In this document: in pieces, positions 37,662-51,131 of the stretch
Layout of the letters: each line of letters starts with the position of its first letter
Numbering within the stretch: the first letter of the stretch is position 1
Source of the DNA: Chloroflexota bacterium
GTDB taxonomy: Bacteria > Chloroflexota > Anaerolineae > UBA2200
Reading direction: 5' to 3'
NCBI GenBank assembly: GCA_030607875.1
Contig: JAUWJD010000004.1
Coordinates: 1 to 64,000 of the forward strand
DNA: 64,000 nt
Notes under the pieces: generated by a model
Told to the model about the DNA's origin: nothing
The model's database searches: none
The model's input: the letters and a program-made list of their open reading frames with translations, nothing else
Made by a program: the position numbers and the translations under genes

Positions 37662-39767
37662 ATGATCCCAAAACGCAACGATCCAATCGATGACTATCCA
37701 GACAGCTCCGAAGGACGCCCCCCCTGGGCCAGCACGGGCCTCTGGCTAACACTGCAGCGTTTCGCTGGATGGGTCGCACAGCACGAACTGTGGATCCTGG
37801 CGGCCGCTGCGCCTTTCCTCCTCTTTCCCAGCCGCTGGACCGTCCTGGCCTTCTCCGTGATCGTCGCTTCCTGGCTTTGCCGCTGGATCGCCCAGGGAAG
37901 GCTCAGCGTACCGACGCCAGGAGATGCGCCCATCGCCCTGCTGCTGTTCACGACCGCGATCGGCCTCTACGCCTCGGTGGATCCATCTTCGAGCCTTGCG
38001 GGCCTGTGGCGCATCGTGCTGGGCGTGGCAGTCTTTTACGGCCTGGCCCACGGGCTGCGGAGTGAGGCACGGCGGCGATGGCTGCCCATAGTCCTGATCT
38101 TCTGCAGCCTGGCACTGGCACTGGTCACCCTGATAGGCACAGAATGGGCCAGCGTGCGATTGTTGCGCCTGCCCCAGATATACGAGCATCTTCCCAGATG
38201 GATTCGGGACATCCAGGATCAGAACGCCTTTCACCCACGGATCATGGGCATGGCGCTGGCAACATGGTTGCCCATCCCCCTCGCTCTGCTGCTGTTCAGC
38301 CGCAACAAGCGTCAGCGTGCATGGGCGGGCCTGGCGGTTTTGGTCATGGGCTTGACCCTCTTGCTCACCCAATCCCTGCAGGCCACCGTCGGAGTTGCGT
38401 GCGCCGTGTTGTTCCTGGCCGTGTGCTGGAATCGCCGGTTCCTGCTGACTGTGCCGCTCTTGCTGGGGGCCTTGCTGTTGGGTCTCAGGATGTATGGTCC
38501 CCAGCAGGCCGCCAAGGCCCTTCTGTCCCTGGACCATCCCCTCGGCATTGCGGTGGTTCTGCGGCTGGACATGTGGAGCCGCGCGCTCGCTATGATTCAC
38601 GACATGCCCTATACCGGCATCGGACTGGACACCTTCCCGGTGATCCAGAGCCAGTTCTACCCCGGCGTGATGATCGGCCCGGAGCCGCACGCTCACAACC
38701 TGTTCCTGCAGCTCGCTTTGGACCTGGGCCTGCCGGGCCTCTTTGCTTTCCTGTGGCTCCTTGTCAGCCTCGGCTATGCAGCGTTCAACGCATACCGCAA
38801 GTGCAGTGAGCCAGATACGCGCGCCCTTCTGCTGGGTGCGGTTGGCGGTGCTGTGTCCTACGTGGCTTCAGGGCTGCTGGATACCATCTGGACGGCCAAG
38901 CCCTCCGTCCTGCTTTGGTTCATCCTGGGCCTTTTCGCTGCAGTGTCTGCAGCCGTCGCTCGCTCCGACGAGCCCCGCGCGTCGCGGAGGTTGCCGGCAT
39001 GGGTGCACCGAACCACTCCTCTGTTTCTGCTGTTGGTTCTTCTGATCCCTGGCCTCTTGGTCACTCGTGCTGGCCCCGCTCTCAACCTGGCCACCGTTCG
39101 GGCCCACAAGCTCCTGCTCTCCGCCCAAGCGGGCCAGGGTCCTTCACGCCAGGCTCTTTCGTCGCTGGCTGAAGAACTCACCGAGGTCGCACGCGTGGAT
39201 GTGGACAATGCTCATGTCCACAGCTTGTTGGGCCGCGTTCTTGCCTGGCAGGGCGAGTACGCAGCCGCCATCGAGGCCTTTCACACACGGGTGCAGATTG
39301 ACGGTAAGAACGCAACCGCGCGTTACGACCCTTCTGAGAGCCTGCGCCGGCGCCTGCTGGCCCAGGGGGGACCGGATCAGTGGGAGGACACCGTGCGAAT
39401 CTACTCGCAGTGGACCAGCCGCTTCCCGCAACGCGCAGAGCACTATGTGCTGATCGCGCTAGTACGGGACCGACATCAGGACAACCCCCGAGGCGCTGCT
39501 GCGGTTCTGAATTCAGGAATAGAGCGCGGAGCAGAGCCCCAGGGGCTTCTCCTATATTACCTGGAGACTATGCAAAAACCAGCCGAAGCGGCTGTTTCTC
39601 GCATAGTCTCTCGACTTCATTCGGATAAGAACACCCTCCTGACAGAACCCCGCACGACTGCCACTCTGCACGTCCATGGCTTCCAGCAACGCCAATCATT
39701 TTCCACCTTCCTGCTACCAAAAAGCTACCCTTTGTTTATGCTTATATGCTATACTATCGCAAAGTAA
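37662..39767 (+). CDS. O-antigen-ligase-like (Wzy_C) membrane protein with TPR tail
   Basis: 701 residues. About twelve N-terminal membrane helices. The Wzy_C hallmark, a large external loop ending GIGLDTFPVIQSQFYPG ... GPEPHAHNLFLQLALDLGLPGLFAF, lies near residues 325-370 with the conserved His. After the last helix, residues 480-640 contain TPR-like helices (ARVDVDNAHVHSLLGRVLAWQGEYAAAIEAF). It would transfer or polymerise a lipid-linked glycan on the outer membrane face. Ligase and polymerase cannot be told apart by eye. The final 40 residues (FSTFLLPKSYPLFMLICYTIAK) read into the promoter of the next gene. Confidence 0.85.
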   Translation: MIPKRNDPIDDYPDSSEGRPPWASTGLWLTLQRFAGWVAQHELWILAAAAPFLLFPSRWTVLAFSVIVASWLCRWIAQGRLSVPTPGDAPIALLLFTTAIGLYASVDPSSSLAGLWRIVLGVAVFYGLAHGLRSEARRRWLPIVLIFCSLALALVTLIGTEWASVRLLRLPQIYEHLPRWIRDIQDQNAFHPRIMGMALATWLPIPLALLLFSRNKRQRAWAGLAVLVMGLTLLLTQSLQATVGVACAVLFLAVCWNRRFLLTVPLLLGALLLGLRMYGPQQAAKALLSLDHPLGIAVVLRLDMWSRALAMIHDMPYTGIGLDTFPVIQSQFYPGVMIGPEPHAHNLFLQLALDLGLPGLFAFLWLLVSLGYAAFNAYRKCSEPDTRALLLGAVGGAVSYVASGLLDTIWTAKPSVLLWFILGLFAAVSAAVARSDEPRASRRLPAWVHRTTPLFLLLVLLIPGLLVTRAGPALNLATVRAHKLLLSAQAGQGPSRQALSSLAEELTEVARVDVDNAHVHSLLGRVLAWQGEYAAAIEAFHTRVQIDGKNATARYDPSESLRRRLLAQGGPDQWEDTVRIYSQWTSRFPQRAEHYVLIALVRDRHQDNPRGAAAVLNSGIERGAEPQGLLLYYLETMQKPAEAAVSRIVSRLHSDKNTLLTEPRTTATLHVHGFQQRQSFSTFLLPKSYPLFMLICYTIAK
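39747..39755 (+). promoter_or_regulatory. Extended -10 promoter for the SdrD-B surface protein
   Basis: TGCTATACT (extended -10) lies 140 bases before the start at 39895. No clear -35. Confidence 0.5.
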
Positions 39768-39894
39768 TCTCGGCGATGCGTCCATCCGACGAGTCATGAT
39801 CTATGTCAGCAAGATTGAAACACGATTTCCGGACACTGGCTCCGGTCTAGAACGCCGAGAAGGGATTCGGCATACATTTACAGGAGGTCAAAGC

Positions 39895-42261
39895 ATGAGA
39901 CTGAGCAAGACTGTTCTGATTGTGATGGTCCTTTTAGCGCTGCTGGTGTCATTTGGCGCCGGCAACCTGACGGCGCAGCCAACTGCGCAGCAGGGTTCGG
40001 ACAGCAGGTTGACCGGGTTCCCGGATTCGACGCCCTACACAGATCCGGTCACAGGCGGGTTCTTCCCCAACAGCGGCAAGTTCATCAACGTCACCCGTGG
40101 CCTGGCCAGCCTTGGCGACGTCGGCGAGGGTCAGAGGGTCTTTAACCTGTCCCTTGCCATCCCCGCTAGCCTGACCGCCTTCGAACTGGAGGTCTTTGAT
40201 GGTGACATGGGTGGCAAGTGGGACCGGCTTCCGACAGGCACTCCCGATCAGCTCACCTTCCGCCTGTACGCTGATCCCCTGCTCACGGGGGCGTCTGACG
40301 TACAGCTGTACCCCGAGTGGGCTGCCACGTCGATGCTGGACGACGATTGGTGCACCTTGAACGAAAGCGGTGACTGTGAGGCAGGGGCCTTGATTACCCA
40401 GCACGATGCGGCCTACAATGAAGATGAAGACACCTACTACTACCACCTCATCGCCACCTGGAACACCATCGACAACACCGATGAGCAGAACGTGTTCAAG
40501 GTGCGCGTGCGAGGCACGCCCTTCCTGCTGGCAGGCAGCACCATCGGCTTCGAGGGCTTTGGCTGCAATCTGGAGCACCCCTTGTGCACGCCCGACTTTC
40601 TCTGGTACAGCGCCTACGACGGCATCTTCGAGTTCGATTTCGTGGTGCCAGTCCTCGGCCCACCGCACCCGCTGGGCGTGATTGAGCTCTACGATGGCGA
40701 CTTTGACCTGGTGCCCGACACGGACGATTTCAACTCACTGTCGGACCCCTCGTGCCGAGGAGCTGCCGCTGATCCGGATGGCCCGGGGCCCAAGGTCCCT
40801 GATCCGCTGAACGGACCGTGGTACACCGTGCTCGATCCGGCTACAGGCTTGCCAAGCTGCGGCTTCCCGCCCTTCCAGACCTCTCCGGACACCTGGGTCG
40901 AGGGCGCCAACACTGGCAACCCTCCAGACGACCAGCCGTGGCCTCTCTTCCTGTGGGAACCGGACATCTGGTACGAGGTCATAGGCCCGAACAACGAGAC
41001 GGCGGCGAACCATAACGTGTCCGGAAACCAGGAGTGGGAGCTGTTCCGCATCGGACTGACCGGGGCTCCGGACGAGGACGCAACGATGTCCTCCTTGCCG
41101 GCCGGCGCCTACCGCTGGCGCATTCAGGGCGTGGATGCACTGAACACGCTGTTCGTGCACCTGAAATACAACCTCTTGCCCTCGCTACCCAAGCTGGGCA
41201 ACACGGTATGGTTCGACAAAGACCGGGACGGGTACTGGGATGCGACGCCAGAGGAGCCCGGCATTGTTGGCGTAGTGCTCAACCTGTACGTCGACGTGGA
41301 CGGGGACGGACAGCTAGACCTTGATGGCCGTACTCCCGATCAGCTCATAGACAGCACGTCCACCGGTGCAGACGGGCAGTACTGGTTCTACGACATCCCC
41401 ATCGGCGTGGTCAACACCTACTGGCTGGTTGAAGTCGCTCCGGAGAACTTTTATGCGGGTGGCCCGCTTGAAACCCTAGCGCCGACGATAGACCGCTCCA
41501 CCGTAGCGGGTGATCATTACAACCGCTCGTCGCCATGGGCAGTGACCATGCCTCCGACTAACGTCGACTACATCGTGGCTGACTTTGGATATGTCGATCA
41601 GGGTGATTTCTGTGTCTGGGATCCGGACGATCCTGATAACGGGGCCACCGGCGGTTGGTGGATCAACTCGGATGCGGAAGGCAACCCGCAATCGGTCACC
41701 ATCCGCACCACGCTGGCCCGCACTTTCGCGGACACGGCCTACGGCACCAACGCGCACCTCACAGGCTGGCCAGGACAGGGGCGCAGGTTCAAGCACATCT
41801 GGACCTCTGACAATCTAGAGATGGAGCTGCTGAACGGCAATGGCGAGGTTGTCATGGAGTTCGGCATAGACTTGCTCGAGCGCACAGACGACCCCAACTT
41901 CCCATCGGGCGTTGCAACGGCGGGCGTCACTGGCGGCGATGGCTACCTTGCGGTCGGTGATCTCGCTCACGTACTGAACTACGAAACATCTATGAGCCTG
42001 AATGTCAACGACTCTGGGTGCTTTGACCCAACCACCTCACCGGAGGTAACCGTAGACCCAGAAACCGGAGAATACACCTCCGAGGCTTGTCCGGCGTGGT
42101 TTTGGGACACCTGGTATGAGATCACGATTGACCTTGCGGCCTTTGGCGATTCTGGCTTTGGTGATGCGATTGTGACGACACTGCATTCAAGCCCGAGCAA
42201 GACCGGTGAGGAAAAGCCCGACATTGATCCCTGCCCGCCTGATTGGCGCGATTGGCTATAA
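39895..42261 (+). CDS. Secreted SdrD-B-domain surface protein
   Basis: 788 residues from ATG 39895, with AGGAGGT 7 bases before; the track start 39676 overlaps the previous gene. Residues 1-26 are a signal peptide (KTVLIVMVLLALLVSFGAG). The SdrD-B (Cna-B-like) domain is at about residues 435-570: LGNTVWFDKDRDGYWD, GIVGVVLNLYVDVDGDGQLDLDG, STSTGADGQYWFYDIP, and a closing DYIVADFGYV strand. Acidic metal-binding loops are frequent. There is no C-terminal anchor. It may be part of an S-layer or a glycan-decorated matrix; this is inference. Confidence 0.8.
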   Translation: MRLSKTVLIVMVLLALLVSFGAGNLTAQPTAQQGSDSRLTGFPDSTPYTDPVTGGFFPNSGKFINVTRGLASLGDVGEGQRVFNLSLAIPASLTAFELEVFDGDMGGKWDRLPTGTPDQLTFRLYADPLLTGASDVQLYPEWAATSMLDDDWCTLNESGDCEAGALITQHDAAYNEDEDTYYYHLIATWNTIDNTDEQNVFKVRVRGTPFLLAGSTIGFEGFGCNLEHPLCTPDFLWYSAYDGIFEFDFVVPVLGPPHPLGVIELYDGDFDLVPDTDDFNSLSDPSCRGAAADPDGPGPKVPDPLNGPWYTVLDPATGLPSCGFPPFQTSPDTWVEGANTGNPPDDQPWPLFLWEPDIWYEVIGPNNETAANHNVSGNQEWELFRIGLTGAPDEDATMSSLPAGAYRWRIQGVDALNTLFVHLKYNLLPSLPKLGNTVWFDKDRDGYWDATPEEPGIVGVVLNLYVDVDGDGQLDLDGRTPDQLIDSTSTGADGQYWFYDIPIGVVNTYWLVEVAPENFYAGGPLETLAPTIDRSTVAGDHYNRSSPWAVTMPPTNVDYIVADFGYVDQGDFCVWDPDDPDNGATGGWWINSDAEGNPQSVTIRTTLARTFADTAYGTNAHLTGWPGQGRRFKHIWTSDNLEMELLNGNGEVVMEFGIDLLERTDDPNFPSGVATAGVTGGDGYLAVGDLAHVLNYETSMSLNVNDSGCFDPTTSPEVTVDPETGEYTSEACPAWFWDTWYEITIDLAAFGDSGFGDAIVTTLHSSPSKTGEEKPDIDPCPPDWRDWL

Positions 42262-42638: not shown

Positions 42639-42920
42639 ATGGCAACCCTTGAGTCAACAATCCGGCTTCCCAGAGATGTCCTGTTTCGCGACCTGGGTGG
42701 CGAGGCGGTGCTGCTGAACCTGGAAAACGGCAAATACTACGGGCTGGACGACGTCGGCACTCGCATGTGGTCCTTGCTCGCCGAGCATGGCCGGGTAGAG
42801 CGGGCCTATCAGGCTCTGCTAGGCGAGTACGACGTGGATGAGGAACAGCTCCTCCGGGATCTGCTGCGATTGATCGATGAGCTGGCACACAATGGATTGC
42901 TTCAAGTTAACGAGACATAG
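42639..42920 (+). CDS. PqqD-family lasso peptide B1 protein (RiPP recognition element)
   Basis: 93 residues from ATG 42639; the longer track frame starts at GTG 42591. The sequence LRDL-like start then GGEAVLLNLENGKYYGLDDVGTRMWSLLAEHG and a C-terminal LLRDLLRLIDELAHNGLL is the winged-helix PqqD fold. In lasso clusters this small protein binds the leader of the precursor and brings it to the B2 protease and cyclase C. It is the first gene after a strong promoter and overlaps the next. Confidence 0.9.
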   Translation: MATLESTIRLPRDVLFRDLGGEAVLLNLENGKYYGLDDVGTRMWSLLAEHGRVERAYQALLGEYDVDEEQLLRDLLRLIDELAHNGLLQVNET

Positions 42921-43356
42921 GCTGCGCACGGTGCTTACCCTCTCACCGCACGACTGGTGGATGCTGGTCCAGACATGGACCCTGCTGCTGGCCGTTGATC
43001 TGGGCCTGCGCGTCCTGCCGTTGCGAAGGGTGCAGGCACTGCTTTCGCTGAGACACAAGGATGCCAGGTATCCCTACCCTGCCGAATTGTCTGCTGTCAC
43101 TCAACACTTGTGGAGGCTGGTTGACATTGCCGCGCGCCATCACCTGTACCGCATGACTTGCCTGCGGCGTTCGGTGGTGCTACAATGGTTGCTGAGAAGG
43201 CGTGGCATTCCTGCCGATCTGCGGATTGGCGTTCGCAAGGAATCGGAGGTCCTGCGTGCACATGCCTGGCTGGAGGTTCAAGCCAAGCCCATTGGCGATC
43301 CAGAGACCATCGCCGCGTGCTATGCGCCCTTGGTAACCTGGGAGGCCGACCGATGA
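42892..43356 (+). CDS. Lasso peptide B2 leader peptidase (transglutaminase-like)
   Basis: 154 residues from ATG 42892; ATG 42877 is an alternative start. B2 motifs: RHHLYRMTCLRRSVVLQWLLRRRGIPADLRIGV has the catalytic Cys, and VLRAHAWLEVQ the His. The N-terminal third is hydrophobic (MLVQTWTLLLAVDLGLRVLPLRRVQALL), as in the family. It cuts the leader from the precursor before ring closure. Overlaps cyclase C by ATGA. Confidence 0.9.
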   Translation: MDCFKLTRHRLRTVLTLSPHDWWMLVQTWTLLLAVDLGLRVLPLRRVQALLSLRHKDARYPYPAELSAVTQHLWRLVDIAARHHLYRMTCLRRSVVLQWLLRRRGIPADLRIGVRKESEVLRAHAWLEVQAKPIGDPETIAACYAPLVTWEADR

Positions 43357-45329
43357 GCGGCATCTGTGGTATCGTCAAGCTAGATGGTGCGCGGGTTGAA
43401 CCGCAGTTGCTGCGCAAAATGGCGGATGGGGCGGCCTATCGTGGACCGGATGGGATCCGGCACTGGGTGCAAGGGCCTGCTGGGTTTGCCCATCTAGCCT
43501 TTCACACCACTCCCGAATCTGCGCGTGAGCGCCAGCCCCTCCTGAGCGATGATGGCCGCTATTGTCTCGTCACGGATGCCCGCATCGACAACCGCGATGA
43601 CCTTATCCCTTTGCTTTATGCCAAGGGTCTTCTGAAATCGAAGTTGCCGACAGACGCGGACATCATCTTCGCTGCGTATAGCCAATGGGGCGAAGATTGC
43701 GCTCAGTATCTCATTGGCGACTATGCCTTTGCGCTATGGAACGCGCCGAACCAGCGGTTGTTCGCGGCCCGCGACGTCATGGGGATCCGACAACTGTACT
43801 ACACTGTACGCGATGGTACCCTGTACTTCGCTACGACTATCGGCAGTCTCATCGCCGCCCTTCCCAGCCGGCCCGCACTGAACGGACCGTTCGTAGAGGA
43901 CTTTTTGCGTTGTCGGTGGAACAGATGGGTACACGAGACGGTGTATGCGGGCATCTACCGTTTGCCGCCTGCACATTCCCTGGTGAGCACTGAGAAGGAA
44001 GTGCGGCTGCGGCAGTACTACACGCTGGGGTCTCGGCCCCCGCCCGCGTATCAGACGGACGAAGAGTGGATCCTGGCCTTTCGCGAGCTATTGAACAAGG
44101 TCCTGGTAGCACAGTTGCGCAGCCAGACTCCGGTCGGTATCCTGGTCAGCGGCGGCCTGGATTCGTCCGCAGTTGCCAGCGTCGCTCATGATATCAGCCA
44201 ACGGCGCGAAGTACCAATGATCAAACTCATCACCTGTCTGTTTGACCATACACCAAGCGCCGATGAACGGGAGTTCTTCCACGAGGTGGAAGCTTACTGT
44301 CCCGACTTTGAATCCCACACCTTTCTGGGTGACGAGCTGTGGGGTTTTCGCGATGTCGGTGCGGAAAGCGGTTATCCCCTGGACGAGCCGGACATTTATG
44401 TACTGCGAGCGCAAACAATGGCGCTCTTTGGCGCAGTTGCCAGCAGTGGCTGCCGCGTGGCGTTGAGCGGAGACTGGGCCAATGGCACCTTGGGCGACGC
44501 GGTTTATGCCACCCCCCGTGCACTGAGAGCAGTTGATCTGAGGACACTGCCATCTGAGATCAAACACTTTAAGAGATTCAGCAAGGAAAGCTGGGTCAGG
44601 CTGTTGTTGAGAGCCTACGCGCCGGAGACTCTGCTGCGCCTGTACCGCAAAGTCATCGATCCCAAGCGCGGGTTATTCGGTCCTTCGCCTACGCCCTGGG
44701 TCCGGCCGTTGGATGATAGTCTCAACCAACGGCAGACAGGTGCCAGGAGTACCAGGCTTCACCGCCCGGATGGACTATCGATTTCCGGAGAGGCCATCCT
44801 GCAGTGGTCAACGCGCGCCTATGACTTTGCCCGGGTGAGTGCGGTAGATGTGAGCACCGCGTTCGCGGGCATTGAGTGGCGGCTGCCGTACCTCGATCGC
44901 CGCATTGTGGAGTTCGCCTTGCGCATGCCGCAGCACATGGCCTGCTCCAATGGCATGAACCGAGTTATTCTACGGCAGAGCATGCGCGGTTCGCTCCCCG
45001 AAAGCGTGCGTTTGCGCATGGATAAGCCCGGCTTGGTGGAACTCGTCTACCGTGGTTTTGAACGTGAGAGAAATCGTGTAGAATGTCTACTAAATGAGCC
45101 GCGTCTCGCAACGTTGGGTTTTATTGATGGTGCGACGCTCCGTGACGAGGTTCACAGGCTGTGGCCAGAAGGAGACAGCAACGATTATCGATTTCGACAT
45201 TGCCTTCCCAGCCTGCTTATGGAGGCCTGGTTGCGCCATGCTTTCCCAACGGTAGATGACATTACTGTTGGCTGTAACGGGTACAATGGCGTTGCGAACC
45301 AGCTATGGAACGAAGGAGGGACATCATGA
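43353..45329 (+). CDS. Lasso peptide cyclase C (asparagine-synthase-like)
   Basis: 658 residues from ATG 43353. Residues 1-210 are the glutaminase-like domain; its start is MSGICGIVKLDG, where Cys sits at position 5, so the Ntn nucleophile is not free and the domain is likely inactive. The synthetase domain has the ATP pyrophosphatase motif GILVSGGLDSSAVAS near residue 264 and the closing region PYLDRRIVEFALRMPQHM. In lasso maturation this enzyme adenylates an acidic side chain and closes the macrolactam with the new N-terminus. It overlaps the precursor gene by ATGA. Confidence 0.93.
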   Translation: MSGICGIVKLDGARVEPQLLRKMADGAAYRGPDGIRHWVQGPAGFAHLAFHTTPESARERQPLLSDDGRYCLVTDARIDNRDDLIPLLYAKGLLKSKLPTDADIIFAAYSQWGEDCAQYLIGDYAFALWNAPNQRLFAARDVMGIRQLYYTVRDGTLYFATTIGSLIAALPSRPALNGPFVEDFLRCRWNRWVHETVYAGIYRLPPAHSLVSTEKEVRLRQYYTLGSRPPPAYQTDEEWILAFRELLNKVLVAQLRSQTPVGILVSGGLDSSAVASVAHDISQRREVPMIKLITCLFDHTPSADEREFFHEVEAYCPDFESHTFLGDELWGFRDVGAESGYPLDEPDIYVLRAQTMALFGAVASSGCRVALSGDWANGTLGDAVYATPRALRAVDLRTLPSEIKHFKRFSKESWVRLLLRAYAPETLLRLYRKVIDPKRGLFGPSPTPWVRPLDDSLNQRQTGARSTRLHRPDGLSISGEAILQWSTRAYDFARVSAVDVSTAFAGIEWRLPYLDRRIVEFALRMPQHMACSNGMNRVILRQSMRGSLPESVRLRMDKPGLVELVYRGFERERNRVECLLNEPRLATLGFIDGATLRDEVHRLWPEGDSNDYRFRHCLPSLLMEAWLRHAFPTVDDITVGCNGYNGVANQLWNEGGTS

Positions 45330-45502
45330 GAGAGCCAGAGCGTCCGCTGGACCAAGAGACTGGGCAAGAACCTGAGCCAAAGTCAAGACTGCCGTATGCG
45401 CCGCCGAAGCTTCACGAATACGGACAGCTCTCAGAGTTGGTTCAGTACGCACCGTCCGAATATCCAAACGAAGCGATTGCCGGGTCTTGGTCTACGTTCT
45501 GA
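45326..45502 (+). CDS. Lasso peptide precursor
   Basis: 58 residues from ATG 45326, six bases after GGAGGG; the track start at 45305 lies inside the cyclase gene. The leader (residues 1-40) is acidic and Pro-rich and ends with the recognition motif YAPPKLHEYGQLSELVQ, matching YxxPxLxxxG, but at the -2 position Val replaces the usual Thr. The predicted core is YAPSEYPNEAIAGSWSTF, 18 residues, with Tyr1 as amine and Glu9 for a nine-residue ring; Glu5 is too close. Its place after the cyclase, rather than before the processing genes, is less common. Confidence 0.88.
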   Translation: MREPERPLDQETGQEPEPKSRLPYAPPKLHEYGQLSELVQYAPSEYPNEAIAGSWSTF

Positions 45503-45524: not shown

Positions 45525-46508
45525 ATGAAATCGGAGTCTCTGCGGCGCGAGCCAGCACAGAACATCGTAGGCCTGAGTGCCTGTGTTCAGGACTGCAGCC
45601 TGCAATTGACATACCGGCAGACCGAGAGTGCGGTGAAGCGACTGGCAGCCCGGTTCATCGCGGCCTTTGGTCGCAGTGAGCTGGGGGGGTTTTGCTACAT
45701 GGCGATTCCTCGAGGCGGCCTATTCGTTTTAGGTATGCTGTCATACGTGCTCGACCTGAGTCGTGAAAGCTTGCTGCCACCGCCTCCCGATCTCCCCCTG
45801 GTGGTGGTTGACGACTGTTGCTTCTCCGGAGCGCGTTTCCACCACGTGCTGCAACTGGTTGAGAACGAGCAGGTCATCTTCGCTCATCTCTATTCTCATC
45901 CCGATTTGCGCGCGGCCATCGAGCATCAGGAGCCCCGAGTGGTTGCCTGCCTGGCAGCGCACGACCTGCGTGACCTGGCTCGGGAACGCTACCCCAATGA
46001 AGAAGAGTACCGTGCCTGGCAGGAGCGCTGGCGCCAGCGGCTGCCAGGTTCACGCTATTGGATTGGCCTGCCGGAGCTCGTTATCTTCCCGTGGAACGAG
46101 CCGGACCGTCCTGTCTGGAACCCACTCACAGAGGAGTTGGAAGACAACTGGCGGTTGACGGCGCCGGACCGCTGTCTCAAGAACTGGGCTCGCCTGGGGG
46201 CACCACCAAGCACAGAAGCGCAGCCAACCCTGCGCAGCCCAGATGCAGTTGCCTTCAGTGTGGGTAACGGCAAGGTCATCCTCTGTGACCTGCAAACCGA
46301 ACAAGTATACGGCCTGGAGGACGTTGCCGCCGACATGTGGCGCGCCCTGACTGCGTATGGCGACCTGGATGTGGCTGCCGAATACTTGCTGAGCCAGTAC
46401 GAGGTGGACCAGACCAGACTGCGCAAGGATTTGAGAGCATTTGCGGACCATTTGCTGGCCAAGGGACTGTTAGAGCGAGTGCATGAGCCAGGCAACAGCA
46501 AGCCCTAA
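45525..46508 (+). CDS. Phosphoribosyltransferase-PqqD fusion protein in lasso cluster
   Basis: 327 residues. Residues 30-195 form a type I phosphoribosyltransferase domain: YMAIPRGGLFVLGML near 58, the PRPP loop LPLVVVDDCCFSGARFHHVL near 90-109, and a COG2236-like VIFPWNEPD near 187. Residues 240-320 are a PqqD/RRE domain, AVAFSVGNGKVILCDLQTEQVYGLEDVAADMW. It would bind the precursor leader through the RRE and use PRPP on the peptide, or sense a purine-like ligand. I do not know this fusion as a lasso tailoring enzyme. It lies 22 bases after the precursor and overlaps the kinase gene by 26 bases. Confidence 0.85.
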   Translation: MKSESLRREPAQNIVGLSACVQDCSLQLTYRQTESAVKRLAARFIAAFGRSELGGFCYMAIPRGGLFVLGMLSYVLDLSRESLLPPPPDLPLVVVDDCCFSGARFHHVLQLVENEQVIFAHLYSHPDLRAAIEHQEPRVVACLAAHDLRDLARERYPNEEEYRAWQERWRQRLPGSRYWIGLPELVIFPWNEPDRPVWNPLTEELEDNWRLTAPDRCLKNWARLGAPPSTEAQPTLRSPDAVAFSVGNGKVILCDLQTEQVYGLEDVAADMWRALTAYGDLDVAAEYLLSQYEVDQTRLRKDLRAFADHLLAKGLLERVHEPGNSKP

Positions 46509-47502
46509 GCCAGAGAATGGCACGTTTCCACCTGCCTCGGCGACCTACCGTATCTTCGGTCTCACCCTGGCTAGCGACTTCCCCTTCGCCAACCGGCTTG
46601 CACCAGGTCTCGGTGTCCCCGACCTGACCTTCACCTGCGTCACCGCAGCCCCACTCCCCAGCAGCTGGGAGCAGGCCACGCCCGCCTACACGAGTTCCTA
46701 CCGTACTGACGACGGCGAGAGCATCTTCTACCTCTACCAGTTGGACGCCTGCGACGTGCTGCGCTTCACCCGCGTTGCTGACTTCTACCTCTGGCCTGAC
46801 CGCATTATCTGCCACCTGCTGGATCCCGACTACGAGTATCTCGTGGAGATCCGCTTGCTCGGGCCGGTGCTCTCCTTCTGGCTGGAGCGCCAAGGGGTCC
46901 CTGCTCTCCACGCCTCGGCCGTTGTGGTGGAGGATCGCGCCGCAGCATTCCTTTCCAGCAACAGCGGTGGTAAGAGCGTGCTGGCGGCCATGTTGATGCA
47001 GGCTGGCTACCCACTGCTCACCGATGACATCCTCCCCGTGGAGCAGAGCCACGGCGCGTTCCTCGGCCGACCTGGCTATCCCCAGATGCGCCTCTGGCCC
47101 GACGAAGCCCATTACTTCCTGGGCCGCTACCAGGATCTGGAGCTCGTACATCCCTCGTACTCCAAGCGTCGCGTCCCTGTGGGCCCTCCCGCCTTTGGCA
47201 CCTTCTGCCCTGAATCGAAGCCCCTGGCTTGCCTATACCTGCCGCAGAGGCGTAGTGCGGCAGAGGGGGATACGGAGATCGAGATCACGCCCGTCTCACG
47301 CCGGGATGCGCTGATCGAACTGGTCCGCCACTCCTTTGCGGCATCGATCGTGGAGCAGTTGGGACTACAACAGCAGCGCCTGGATCTATTCGCCCAGATG
47401 GTGCGGCTGGTCCCCGTGCGCCGGCTCGTCTACCCTTCCGGTTTCGAACACCTGGCCCTCGTGCGGGAGGCGATACTCCAGGATTTGGAGACGCTGTCCT
47501 AG
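46483..47502 (+). CDS. HPr-kinase-like lasso tailoring kinase
   Basis: 339 residues. HprK-related fold: the region VPALHASAVVVEDRAAAFLSSNSGGKSVLAAMLMQAGYPLLTDDILPVE holds the P-loop SSNSGGKS (residue about 165) and the acidic pair of the second motif. N-terminal 140 residues are beta-rich and would face the peptide. Kinases of this group phosphorylate the C-terminal Ser of lasso precursors (paeninodin type). Here the core ends SWSTF, so Ser16 or Thr17 are candidates rather than a terminal Ser. This placement is inference. Confidence 0.82.
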   Translation: MSQATASPKPENGTFPPASATYRIFGLTLASDFPFANRLAPGLGVPDLTFTCVTAAPLPSSWEQATPAYTSSYRTDDGESIFYLYQLDACDVLRFTRVADFYLWPDRIICHLLDPDYEYLVEIRLLGPVLSFWLERQGVPALHASAVVVEDRAAAFLSSNSGGKSVLAAMLMQAGYPLLTDDILPVEQSHGAFLGRPGYPQMRLWPDEAHYFLGRYQDLELVHPSYSKRRVPVGPPAFGTFCPESKPLACLYLPQRRSAAEGDTEIEITPVSRRDALIELVRHSFAASIVEQLGLQQQRLDLFAQMVRLVPVRRLVYPSGFEHLALVREAILQDLETLS

Positions 47503-47542: not shown

Positions 47543-49426
47543 CTAGCCGCCCCGCCCCACTCTGGGCAGGAACTGTTCCAGTAGCAGCGGCGGGCCCAGG
47601 TGATACTCGGGCGCATCCCACTGCCGCCCGGCGCACCAACCTCCGAAAGAGTCCCCCAGGTCAACCCAAGGTTCCAACCGTCCTTCCACAACACTCACGG
47701 CCCCGCCCTCAATCTGTAACTTCACCACCTCGATCTGAAGGGGTCCCGCCGCAGTGCCAACCCTGCTTGTGTCCGTCAAGGTGACAGTCACCGTCTGAGC
47801 CAGCGGCTGACGCTGGAGTGGCATGGACCAGGTCCGCTCCGCTGCGCTCAGGCTAGCCATCGTTGTGGTGTAGACCCTTTGCTGCGTCTGCACCTGAACT
47901 TGCACATCCACGGGCAAAAGCCCATCGTTGGAAATCGTCAGCGTCAGTGTGTCCGCGCTTGCACCTACTCTGCTCAGCCCCACGTTTGGTGTCGCCGCCA
48001 GGAGGTACAAGCTCCAGTGCAGCCAGCGATGCACCGTCAGTGGAATCTCGTCCGGCGGCGGGTTGAATGCCTCACCGAGACTCAAGCCGACAGTGTAGGT
48101 ATTCGTCATCGTGATGCGCTGCGTAAACGACAGCGAGCTGGCGCCGTACACCTCGGGTGTCCAGGCCAGAATCCCCTGCTCGTACAGCCAGTCCATGACG
48201 TTGCCGGGTCCGGCGTACAGCCCCCGCGCCGTCCAGGTGTGGGGTGCGCCATGGAAGCCGTTCGCCTCGGTAAGCTGGCTGCCCTTGCGTGACAGCATCT
48301 CGTACCAGAACACGTCTGGCAGCTCGGCCTCGGCGGACCAGCCCCAGGGATGCAGCAGCGTATCGGTGCCGGATTGAAAGTCGCAAGCCATCACGATGTT
48401 GGGCCGCGCCAGCACGAAATCCCGGACGGCGCGGGTCTCTGGTTCGGAGAAGGCCACCGGGCCATGGTAAGTGTCCGCCCTGGGATCCTCATTGCCCAGC
48501 TCCCAGTGGCTGTCAAAATTGCGGTTGGGATCCACGCCGCCGGGCGGGTCCTCCCCGGCCAACCCGTCCCCATCGTTGTCTACCTGGACGACCTTTCTAC
48601 GCTCATTATCAAAGATCCCCACAAACGTACGGCTCACCAGGTGAGCTTGCCAGCCTTCGGCGAAGGGGGCATCGGGATGCTCTGCCACCCAGTCGGCATC
48701 GAATTCGTAGTGATACACGTCGTAGGTGCCATAGCCCGCCTCCTCGCGCCCATCCTCGTCGTACAGACCATCTCCATCGTCATCGCTGGCCGTCGGGTTG
48801 GCCGTCTTGCGCTGCCTCTGATCCGCATCCAGGAAGATGTCGTTGCCGTCGGGGTTCACGCAGGGGACGGCGTACACCGTCCGCGTGTCCAGCAGGTGGG
48901 TGATCAGCGGGTCACTGCCGTACTGCGAGGCCAGGTACCATAGGAGGTACAGCACCACCGGGCTGCTCACAGCCTCGCGGGCGTGGATCCCACCCTCTAC
49001 GTACAGCGCCGGCCGGCTGTCTGGCCCGCCCGTTGCCTGGTTGCTGATCCGTACCGCCATGATCGGCCGCTCTTGCCATGACCGGCCGATTTCCCTTGCT
49101 TCCACCAGCCCAGGATAGGCGCTCTGTAGTTGATTCAGGAACGCCACTATCTCCGCGGAGGTCGGGTAGTGGGTGAAATCCACCACGAAGGACGGATCGG
49201 GGAGGGGGATGTCTGCCGACCGGTGGGTGAGCATCGGACGCGAGAGCTGCTGGCCATGCTCACGTCGGTACAGATCATCAAGGCCTTCGATCCAGCGAAA
49301 ACGGTCGATGGGTGCCCGAGGCTGGGCCTGACCACGGGCCGGGCTGAGACAGAGACCCGCGATGATCGCGAGGATCAGAGCGCTCAACAGCAGATAGCGA
49401 TTCCTCAAAAGCTCAAGTGTGGCCAT
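47543..49426 (-). CDS. Secreted M14 zinc carboxypeptidase-like protein
   Basis: 627 residues on the opposite strand. Signal peptide at 1-33 (YLLLSALILAIIAGLCLSPARGQA). M14 core: zinc pair in VEGGIHAREAVSS (HxxE), VPCVNPDG, GVDPNRNFDSHW, and the general base in LAWTPEVYG. The third zinc ligand position, His in known enzymes (IHSYSQLLLYPYG in bovine enzyme), is Gln here: CDFQSGTDTLLHPWG. A Ca-binding-like insert, DDDGDGLYDEDGREE, sits after residue 210, and a beta domain ends the protein. It has its own promoter and is not obviously part of the lasso operon. Confidence 0.88.
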   Translation of the reverse strand: MATLELLRNRYLLLSALILAIIAGLCLSPARGQAQPRAPIDRFRWIEGLDDLYRREHGQQLSRPMLTHRSADIPLPDPSFVVDFTHYPTSAEIVAFLNQLQSAYPGLVEAREIGRSWQERPIMAVRISNQATGGPDSRPALYVEGGIHAREAVSSPVVLYLLWYLASQYGSDPLITHLLDTRTVYAVPCVNPDGNDIFLDADQRQRKTANPTASDDDGDGLYDEDGREEAGYGTYDVYHYEFDADWVAEHPDAPFAEGWQAHLVSRTFVGIFDNERRKVVQVDNDGDGLAGEDPPGGVDPNRNFDSHWELGNEDPRADTYHGPVAFSEPETRAVRDFVLARPNIVMACDFQSGTDTLLHPWGWSAEAELPDVFWYEMLSRKGSQLTEANGFHGAPHTWTARGLYAGPGNVMDWLYEQGILAWTPEVYGASSLSFTQRITMTNTYTVGLSLGEAFNPPPDEIPLTVHRWLHWSLYLLAATPNVGLSRVGASADTLTLTISNDGLLPVDVQVQVQTQQRVYTTTMASLSAAERTWSMPLQRQPLAQTVTVTLTDTSRVGTAAGPLQIEVVKLQIEGGAVSVVEGRLEPWVDLGDSFGGWCAGRQWDAPEYHLGPPLLLEQFLPRVGRGG

Positions 49427-49515: not shown

Positions 49516-49889
49516 ACCTGGTGGCGGAAGGTAGTGTGTCCTTCGTACCGACGTAGCTCGATTGCTGTGTCACTGCGCTCTCTTATGTAGTATAGGGGCT
49601 TGTCCCCGTCCGTGACTTCCATAAAGGGCTATGCTACATACCCTGCTTTGCACCAGAGACCCAAAGACCGCGGACGAGACGGTCTGCCTGCCATCATGTC
49701 TTGTGACAGTAGGCTGCTCGCCACTCGGCAGGTCTTCTCACACCAGGGTGGGCATGGTGTTTCCCATCTGCTCTCGGAACCCGATTTCCTGAGCCAAAGA
49801 CCCACTATCCGGCGGAATGCCCAAAAGTGTGGTACAATAGGACATATCCGTACCGGAGGGATAGGCCGCACGCCAGTGGCGGGCACCCA
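49516..49889 (+). other. Intergenic stretch, no gene seen
   Basis: The ORF at 49600-49893 has no family look and overlaps the next gene. A possible -10 (TACAAT near 49835) lacks a convincing -35 but sits about 50 bases before the next start. Nothing else is recognised. Confidence 0.5.
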
Positions 49890-51131
49890 ATGAACCGGCC
49901 CAGCCCTCGGCAAGGTCAGCCAAGGAGAATCTTGTCCAAACCATACAAATCCCCGACAGCAGGCACTCGTCCCGAAACCGATCTGCTTCTCTGCTGTGCC
50001 CAGGTCTGCGCGGATTCTGAAAGGGCCGAGCGCATCAGGGCGCTGCTCCGAGAAGACCTGGACTGGGAATACCTGCTTCAGACAGCGCAGCAGCACGCTA
50101 CGATGCCAATCCTGTATCAAAGCCTGACCACTGCTTGTCCGCAAGCCGTTCCCAAAGCTGTCTTGGATCAGCTCCGGGAGCATTTCTACAGCAACACACG
50201 GCGCAACTTTGCCCTCACCGGAGAACTGCTCAAATGTCTGAATCTGCTTGAGGCCCACGGCATCCCCGCCGTGCCGTACCGGGGGCCTGTGCTGGCAGCT
50301 TCCGTCTACGGCGACTTTAACCTGCGTCAGTTCGGTGATCTGGACATCCTGGTGCACAAGAAGGACGTCATGCGGGCCCAAGACCTGCTTATATCCCAGG
50401 GTTACCGGCCCGAATTCCAACTCAACCGCGCACAGGAGGCAGCCTACCTTCGGGCCCAGTCCGAGCACAAAGTTGTGCTCGATGAGGGCCCGGTTATCGT
50501 GGAGATCCACTGGCGACTCACAGAGGGATACTTCTCCTTCCCGCTCGACCCAGAGCAACTGTGGGAGCGCCTGGAGCCGGTATCGCTTGCTGGCAAAGAA
50601 GTGCAGACCTTCTCGCCCGAGGACTTGCTCCTGATCCTGTGCGTGCACGGCACCAAACACCTGTGGGAGCGGCTGGGGTGGATCTGTGACGTGGCCAAGC
50701 TGGTGTGCGCTCATGAAGCGATGAACTGGCAATGGGTTATGGAGCAGGCCTGCGCACTGGGCAGTGCACGGATGCTCTTCCTCGGCCTTTTCCTGGCCAA
50801 CGATCTCCTGGGTGCAGCCCTTCCGGCAGAGGTATTGCAAAGGGCGCAGGCCGACCCAATGGTTGTTTCGCTCGCCCGGCAGGTGCGACAATGGCTCTTT
50901 CTTGATCCCAGCGAGCGGCCTGGAAGCCTGGAAAGCTGCCTCTTCCACCTCAGAGCGAGAGAACGAACGCAGGACAGAGTACGATACTGCGTCCGCCTGG
51001 CTGTGACGACAACGCCTGGAGACTGGGCCCTCGTGCGGCTGCCGTCATCTCTGTTCCCTCTCTACTACGTGCTGCGGCCGATCCGGCTGGCGGGGAAGTA
51101 TGGACTGGAACTATTGAAGCGCTTACTCTGA
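49890..51131 (+). CDS. PF14907-type nucleotidyltransferase, likely lasso-cluster associated
   Basis: 413 residues from ATG 49890; ATG 49827 is an alternative. Nucleotidyltransferase pattern: GIPAVPYRGPVLAASVYGDFNLRQFGDLDILVHKKDVMRA, with the GxxxAxxxY...RxxxDxDxLV metal-binding layout of the NTP_transf_5 family, then VIVEIHWRLT and FSPEDLLLILCVHGTKHLWERLGWICDVAKL. This family often lies in lasso and other RiPP clusters (pseudomycoidin type). It is separated from the kinase by a divergent gene, so membership is inference. It could modify the phosphorylated peptide. Confidence 0.85.
   Translation: MNRPSPRQGQPRRILSKPYKSPTAGTRPETDLLLCCAQVCADSERAERIRALLREDLDWEYLLQTAQQHATMPILYQSLTTACPQAVPKAVLDQLREHFYSNTRRNFALTGELLKCLNLLEAHGIPAVPYRGPVLAASVYGDFNLRQFGDLDILVHKKDVMRAQDLLISQGYRPEFQLNRAQEAAYLRAQSEHKVVLDEGPVIVEIHWRLTEGYFSFPLDPEQLWERLEPVSLAGKEVQTFSPEDLLLILCVHGTKHLWERLGWICDVAKLVCAHEAMNWQWVMEQACALGSARMLFLGLFLANDLLGAALPAEVLQRAQADPMVVSLARQVRQWLFLDPSERPGSLESCLFHLRARERTQDRVRYCVRLAVTTTPGDWALVRLPSSLFPLYYVLRPIRLAGKYGLELLKRLL

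Follow-up and report, generated by a model that had tools for sequence, protein, structure and literature searches.

A lasso peptide precursor with valine at position −2 in a Chloroflexota operon that encodes an HPr-kinase-like enzyme and a predicted phosphoribosyltransferase–RRE fusion

Introduction

A 64,000-nucleotide stretch of a Chloroflexota genome (hereafter the window) contains a short open reading frame, 45326–45502 on the forward strand, whose product looks like a lasso peptide precursor with Val at position −2, Tyr as the first core residue and the C-terminal sequence SWSTF in an operon that also encodes a kinase. This locus raises two questions: is the frame a genuine precursor, and, if so, which residue would the kinase modify? 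Our comparison of related clusters indicates, as judged from sequence, that 45326–45502 is a genuine lasso precursor and only mildly unusual; with its Val(−2), its Tyr1 and its place behind the cyclase gene, it represents a variant form of an established precursor type. More interesting than the precursor itself for specialist follow-up are an internal Gly-Ser found in most precursors of its kinase group and a phosphoribosyltransferase (PRTase)-fold protein fused to a second RiPP recognition element (RRE).

A complete lasso peptide operon

The precursor gene runs from the ATG at 45326 to the TGA at 45502 (+) and encodes 58 amino acids, with a leader of 40 residues (MREPERPLDQETGQEPEPKSRLPYAPPKLHEYGQLSELVQ) and a core of 18 (YAPSEYPNEAIAGSWSTF; 45446–45499, +). 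Its start is well supported, because the ATG overlaps the cyclase stop codon as ATGA and is preceded at normal spacing by a strong ribosome-binding site (AAGGAGG, region 45310–45325, +; upstream sequence AAGGAGGGACATC). The operon is complete, in the order B1, B2, cyclase, precursor, PRTase-RRE and kinase, and none of its six genes is interrupted. B1 (42639–42920, +) is a PqqD-like RRE predicted to bind the leader (Pfam PqqD, 1.5e-18; NCBIfam lasso_PqqD_Bac, 3.9e-17, below its curated cut-off). B2 (42877–43356, +), a transglutaminase-like leader peptidase, exceeds the curated cut-off of NCBIfam lasso_biosyn_B2 (2.8e-25) and has conserved Cys and His-Ala-Trp columns. The asparagine-synthetase-like cyclase (43353–45329, +) combines Asn_synthase and GATase_7 domains, matches NCBIfam lass_lactam_cya at 1.1e-108, below the curated cut-off, and is the only lasso cyclase of its kind in the genome. 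The precursor is found beside the B1/B2 protease and the cyclase, as is usual for lasso precursors. The sequence-only reading had regarded its position behind the cyclase as atypical; the position is correct, but this order is common in related clusters.

Further downstream is the gene for an NTP_transf_5 protein resembling nucleotidyltransferases, of a kind that often accompanies lasso clusters and is present in many of those that we retrieved (49827–51131, +; Pfam, 3.2e-69). Upstream lies a gene for a large secreted SdrD_B-like protein (39676–42261); a FINVTRG-like stretch of this protein recurs in a protein encoded upstream of the L009 cluster, and the L008 cluster is also preceded by a gene for a secreted protein.

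The cluster recurs in two genomes of the same family, with identical gene order and homologous precursors (YASPKLHEYGRLADLTQ-GTYKFGYKDANGGSYYPGFFEPKE in L008 and YTSPTLQEYGHLSSVTC-GTGKKAPDSPFPGSQTTFFAPEKRRF in L009), and precursor genes occupy the orthologous position in L010, L129–L134 and L142. The presence of homologous precursors at the same place among cyclase, PRTase-RRE and kinase genes, in the same family and in other phyla, rules out a chance open reading frame. We assembled 49 distinct precursors from kinase-bearing clusters by a kinase search of the class and phylum, a search of every species genome with aligned kinases as the query, and loci obtained earlier. A search of genome contigs with the single cyclase protein gave no match, whereas the kinase alignment did. 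Five frames were removed by hand as chance matches to the leader pattern (window 41655, L040 5293, L103 9817, L110 1554 and L113 1); the L093 precursor, which has no ring acid and may have suffered a frameshift close to its contig end, was retained in the counts. Two precursor-like peptides with lasso-type leaders are also encoded beside a kinase and a B1 protein (L104 7399–7515 and L105 7485–7595). Their cores have no ring acid and contain basic runs (RGRGRGRR and RKKKKK), and they perhaps give rise to a non-lasso product.

We consider it probable that the product of 45326–45502 matures into a phosphorylated lasso peptide. Leader binding at Y(−17)xxPxL(−12) would fall to B1 and to the second RRE, that of the PRTase fusion, and the HPr-kinase-like enzyme would phosphorylate a tail hydroxyl before cutting, most likely Ser14 of the Gly-Ser and not a C-terminal Ser. 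B2 would then cut between Gln(−1) and Tyr1, accepting or even favouring Val(−2), and the cyclase would link the side chain of Glu9 to the amine of Tyr1 around the threaded tail A10–F18. The PRTase-RRE would probably add, or control, a further PRPP-dependent modification. The monoisotopic masses calculated for these predicted products are 1970.869 for the lasso (1988.879 for the linear core), 2050.835 with one phosphate and 2182.877 with a phosphoribosyl group (+212.009); a form shortened to Ser14 would have 1449.641, or 1529.608 when phosphorylated.

Candidate phosphorylation site in the tail

The kinase gene (46483–47502, +) was assigned to the HPr-kinase-like lasso precursor kinases by alignment, by its position in the tree and by a match to TIGR04352 HprK_rel_A (1.6e-5, below the cut-off). 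His143, Lys164, Asp181 and Asp182 are invariant in eight aligned kinases, and this catalytic motif is that of the paeninodin group (PadeK, ThcoK and SyanK; PMC9266682), whose HPr-kinase-like enzymes likewise belong to lasso operons. Paeninodin-type precursors differ in ending with the Ser that is phosphorylated (PMC9266682), whereas the precursor of the window has an internal Gly-Ser and ends in STF; it also has Val for Thr at −2 and is separated from the kinase gene by that of the PRTase-RRE.

A terminal Ser had been taken beforehand as the expected kinase target, and this expectation proved misplaced. We compared the 16 precursors whose cluster kinase is at least 40% identical to that of the window (the kinase group) with the other 33 (below 40%). 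A C-terminal Ser occurs in only one of the 16, as against 16 of the 33 (Fisher P 0.004). Conversely, a Gly-Ser lies four to six residues past the ring acid in 10/16 members of the group, and within eight residues of it in 4/33 of the rest (P 0.0005); shuffled tails gave a mean of 2.2/16, and none of 20,000 shuffles reached 10, these P values being descriptive only since the sequences are related and the pattern was noticed before testing. Examples are E9-AIAGSWSTF in the window, D9-LKVGSWTV (L133), E8-PTGGSTFF (L129), D8-SEGGSTPETF (L010) and D8-TLGSQQT (L132); the L142 precursor terminates in IGS, and L131, L134, L092 and L141 are members without the Gly-Ser. In the kinase tree, the window groups with L008 and L009 (98/92) inside a clade of 21 members (99/95) that holds all the PRTase-RRE clusters. 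The Gly-Ser seems to be tied to the kinase, as it is also found in clade members in which no PRTase gene was seen (L010, L040 and L140). The near loss of the C-terminal Ser, combined with the conserved Gly-Ser, makes Ser14 the likelier target; Ser4, Ser16 and Thr17 are other possible sites. An internal Gly-Ser as the indicated phosphorylation site would change the product predicted for such clusters.

Phosphorylation away from the C-terminus has a published precedent in the BsfA/BsfK cluster of Bradymonas sediminis, in which BsfK modifies the ring residue Ser3 of BsfA (PMC10368454). By analogy, the kinase of the window could act on Ser4 in the ring, with the Gly-Ser being only a structural feature of the tail. 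BsfA is also a precursor with a residue other than Thr at −2, and several relatives have Thr2 or Thr1 in the ring. The position of the ring hydroxyl nevertheless varies within the kinase group (Ser4 in the window, Thr2 in L008, L009 and L129, Thr1 in L010) while the Gly-Ser is kept, and we regard a ring target as unlikely.

Another way to reconcile the tail with paeninodin would be to consider WSTF as a removable extension, trimmed back to a terminal phospho-Ser14 to give a conventional paeninodin-type product. The candidate for this trimming is an M14 zinc carboxypeptidase with an N-terminal hydrophobic signal-like segment (47543–49426, −; Pfam Peptidase_M14, 1.7e-56), whose gene converges on that of the kinase in the window and in four other clusters (L008 9803–11746, L009 1830–3755, L010 3669–5597 and L094 5237–7144). 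The precursors of L011 and L142 end exactly in such a Ser, and host carboxypeptidases shorten lasso tails in other cases (PMC13352647). However, the M14 protein looks secreted and is encoded on the opposite strand, and it is absent from PRTase-RRE clusters of other phyla in which the tail likewise extends past the Gly-Ser. We therefore consider trimming to be somewhat less likely still than a ring target; our search of the literature found nothing relevant on M14 enzymes in lasso clusters, and this one may trim the tail or be unrelated to the cluster.

In two clusters, one cyanobacterial (L130 7010–8155) and one acidobacterial (L134 7036–8178), a methyltransferase-like gene (MYS.xxYGxM...IGTG) directly follows that of the lasso kinase.

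Valine at position −2

The comparison upheld the earlier observation that the precursor has an unusual Val at −2. The residue, encoded by GTT at 45440–45442 (+), is present in the window alone, Thr being found in 48/49 precursors of kinase-bearing clusters (the search for Thr tolerated a shift of one residue in either direction, a slight bias towards Thr, but 47 precursors have the standard spacing). A single sequencing error was rejected as its source, since GTT and ACT differ by two bases. The window precursor departs here from the usual lasso pattern; Thr(−2) is, however, a typical and not a defining feature, because members with Ile or Val at this position have been published (PMC10368454). 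BsfA has a natural Ile(−2), and Ile or Val is predicted in precursors of Acidobacteriaceae and Sphingomonadales, all accompanied by a kinase or phosphotransferase (PMC10368454); an earlier report, as cited there, predicted Ile, Val or Ala. Val(−2) is thus a rare but known residue.

This does not mean that Val is generally accepted, as BsfA was no longer cut, or almost no longer, when its Ile(−2) was replaced by Val, Leu, Thr or Ala, the Val variant being among those with almost no cutting (PMC10368454). Each lasso system may be tuned to its own −2 residue. We looked for a compensating change in B1 or B2 and recognised none: the GKYYGLD motif of B1 is intact, and Thr33, Leu49 and Val100 are the only B2 residues that deviate where the column is broadly conserved.

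One could also argue for a decaying gene that no longer yields a product, in which Val(−2) and Tyr1 reflect loss-of-function drift. The window is indeed the sole member with either residue, and the BsfA mutant shows that Val can block cutting. Against this, the operon is uninterrupted, all its enzyme motifs are preserved, and the precursor gene retains its ribosome-binding site, register, ring acid and Gly-Ser, so that decay seems improbable. Cutting of a functional precursor by a B2 that accepts Val(−2) is the reading that we favour, and with such a natural substrate one could ask directly which demands the B1/B2 pocket makes at a position where Thr was long thought necessary.

Register of the precursor

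The leader contains YAPPKLHEYG (−17 to −8; 45395–45424, +), an instance of the lasso pattern YxxPxL...G, and YAxPKLHEYG or a close variant recurs in the syntenic precursors of the two same-family genomes and in clusters of other phyla. Counted from the proposed cut, the precursor has Y−17, P−14, L−12, G−8, V−2, Q−1, Y1, E9 and S14. This register matches that of BsfA, in which Tyr, Pro and Leu occupy −17, −14 and −12 and mass spectrometry established where the peptide is cut (PMC10368454). The two systems also share a branched residue other than Thr at −2, a kinase with separate B1 and B2 proteins, and phosphorylation (predicted in the window) away from the C-terminus. They differ in that BsfA has Ile(−2), a Gly1–Asp8 ring and Ser3 as kinase target, and in that no PRTase-RRE fusion has been described in its cluster.

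The leader Gly is separated from the core by seven residues in 47/49 precursors and by six in the other two. With the proposed cut, 39/49 precursors have an acid at core position 8 or 9, as compared with 27 for a cut one residue earlier and 22 for a cut one residue later. In the window, the seven-residue spacing gives Glu9, within the 7–9 range of lasso ring acids; a cut one residue earlier leaves no acid at 8 or 9 and is ruled out by spacing and ring acid. These comparisons support cleavage after Gln40 (Gln|Tyr) and a predicted Tyr1–Glu9 ring, and they bear out the sequence-only reading of a lasso precursor with a YxxPxLxxxG leader and a core starting at Tyr. Its expectation of an invariant Glu at core 9 did not hold, as the ring acid of relatives is either Asp or Glu and lies at position 8 or 9, and Tyr1 is unique to the window among the 49 (26 have Gly and seven Ser). 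A core starting at Ala2, with Glu8 at another usual ring position, is very improbable, since it needs a spacing of eight with Gln at −2, a combination that none of the 49 precursors displays.

A predicted PRTase-RRE fusion

The gene between precursor and kinase (45525–46508, +) encodes a predicted PRTase-fold domain (residues ~25–215) followed by a second RRE (~240–316), as indicated by Pfam, AlphaFold2 and Foldseek. The C-terminal half matches Pfam PqqD (5.7e-11). The N-terminal half matches Pribosyltran at 0.0034 only, below the cut-off, and would thus be a divergent member of that family; its PRGG and VDDxxxSG-type PRPP-binding motifs are invariant (VVVDDCCFSGARF, with V95, D96, D97 and G102 invariant). 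A first structural model was poor (pLDDT 65), and we used one built on a deeper alignment of 12 sequences (pLDDT 83, pTM 0.77). In Foldseek searches with this model, the RRE half matched the leader-bound lasso RRE TbiB1 (5V1V; TM 0.90 by target). The N-terminal half matched several type I PRTases (XGPRT, HGXPRT and OPRT structures) by partial superposition (E ~1e-4; TM by target 0.41–0.61), and one match, 5VOG, holds ppGpp. The model and the motifs together point to a PRTase fold with a PRPP motif.

The PRTase-RRE gene adjoins that of the kinase in 11 clusters from six phyla, the hosts comprising Chloroflexota, a Nitrospirota-labelled MAG, Nodosilinea (Cyanobacteriota), two Acidobacteriota, a Chromatiaceae MAG and a Myxococcota MAG. 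It lies directly between precursor and kinase in ten of them (the window, L008 7830–8813, L009 5122–6102, L129 3315–4286, L130 4746–5930, L131 5069–5986, L132 4027–4944, L133 4727–5911, L134 5066–5968 and L142 4775–5992); the contig of the remaining one (L033) breaks off before it reaches a precursor. The distribution of these clusters requires five changes on the kinase tree, so that a single origin of the fusion is neither shown nor excluded.

In the literature that we searched, we found neither a PRTase-RRE fusion nor any lasso peptide or RRE coupled with a PRTase as tailoring enzyme. The protein is apparently an enzyme of tailoring or regulation that has gone undescribed. It probably carries out a second modification, which may be the attachment of a PRPP-derived group by analogy with pseudomycoidin, in which phosphorylation by the kinase PsmK is followed by sugar-type addition on the phospho-Ser by PsmN (PMC9266682). 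The NTP_transf_5 gene near the operon adds to this resemblance; PsmN, however, is a hexose-adding enzyme with a nucleotidyltransferase annotation, and the predicted fold of the PRTase-RRE is a different one. Alternatively, the protein could bind a nucleotide as a regulator, in line with the ppGpp present in 5VOG. We put forward only tentatively that, in at least six phyla, an internal tail Ser is phosphorylated and then receives a phosphoribosyl or other PRPP-derived group from an RRE-bearing PRTase. If true, phosphoribosyl-type tailoring would be new to lasso peptides, and the fusion is a candidate new lasso tailoring enzyme with a ready-made substrate. Homologues of the PRTase(-RRE) are also encoded at two loci in which no lasso gene was recognised nearby (L034 7343–8890, G132; L035 1931–2857, G351), and the family may have another role.
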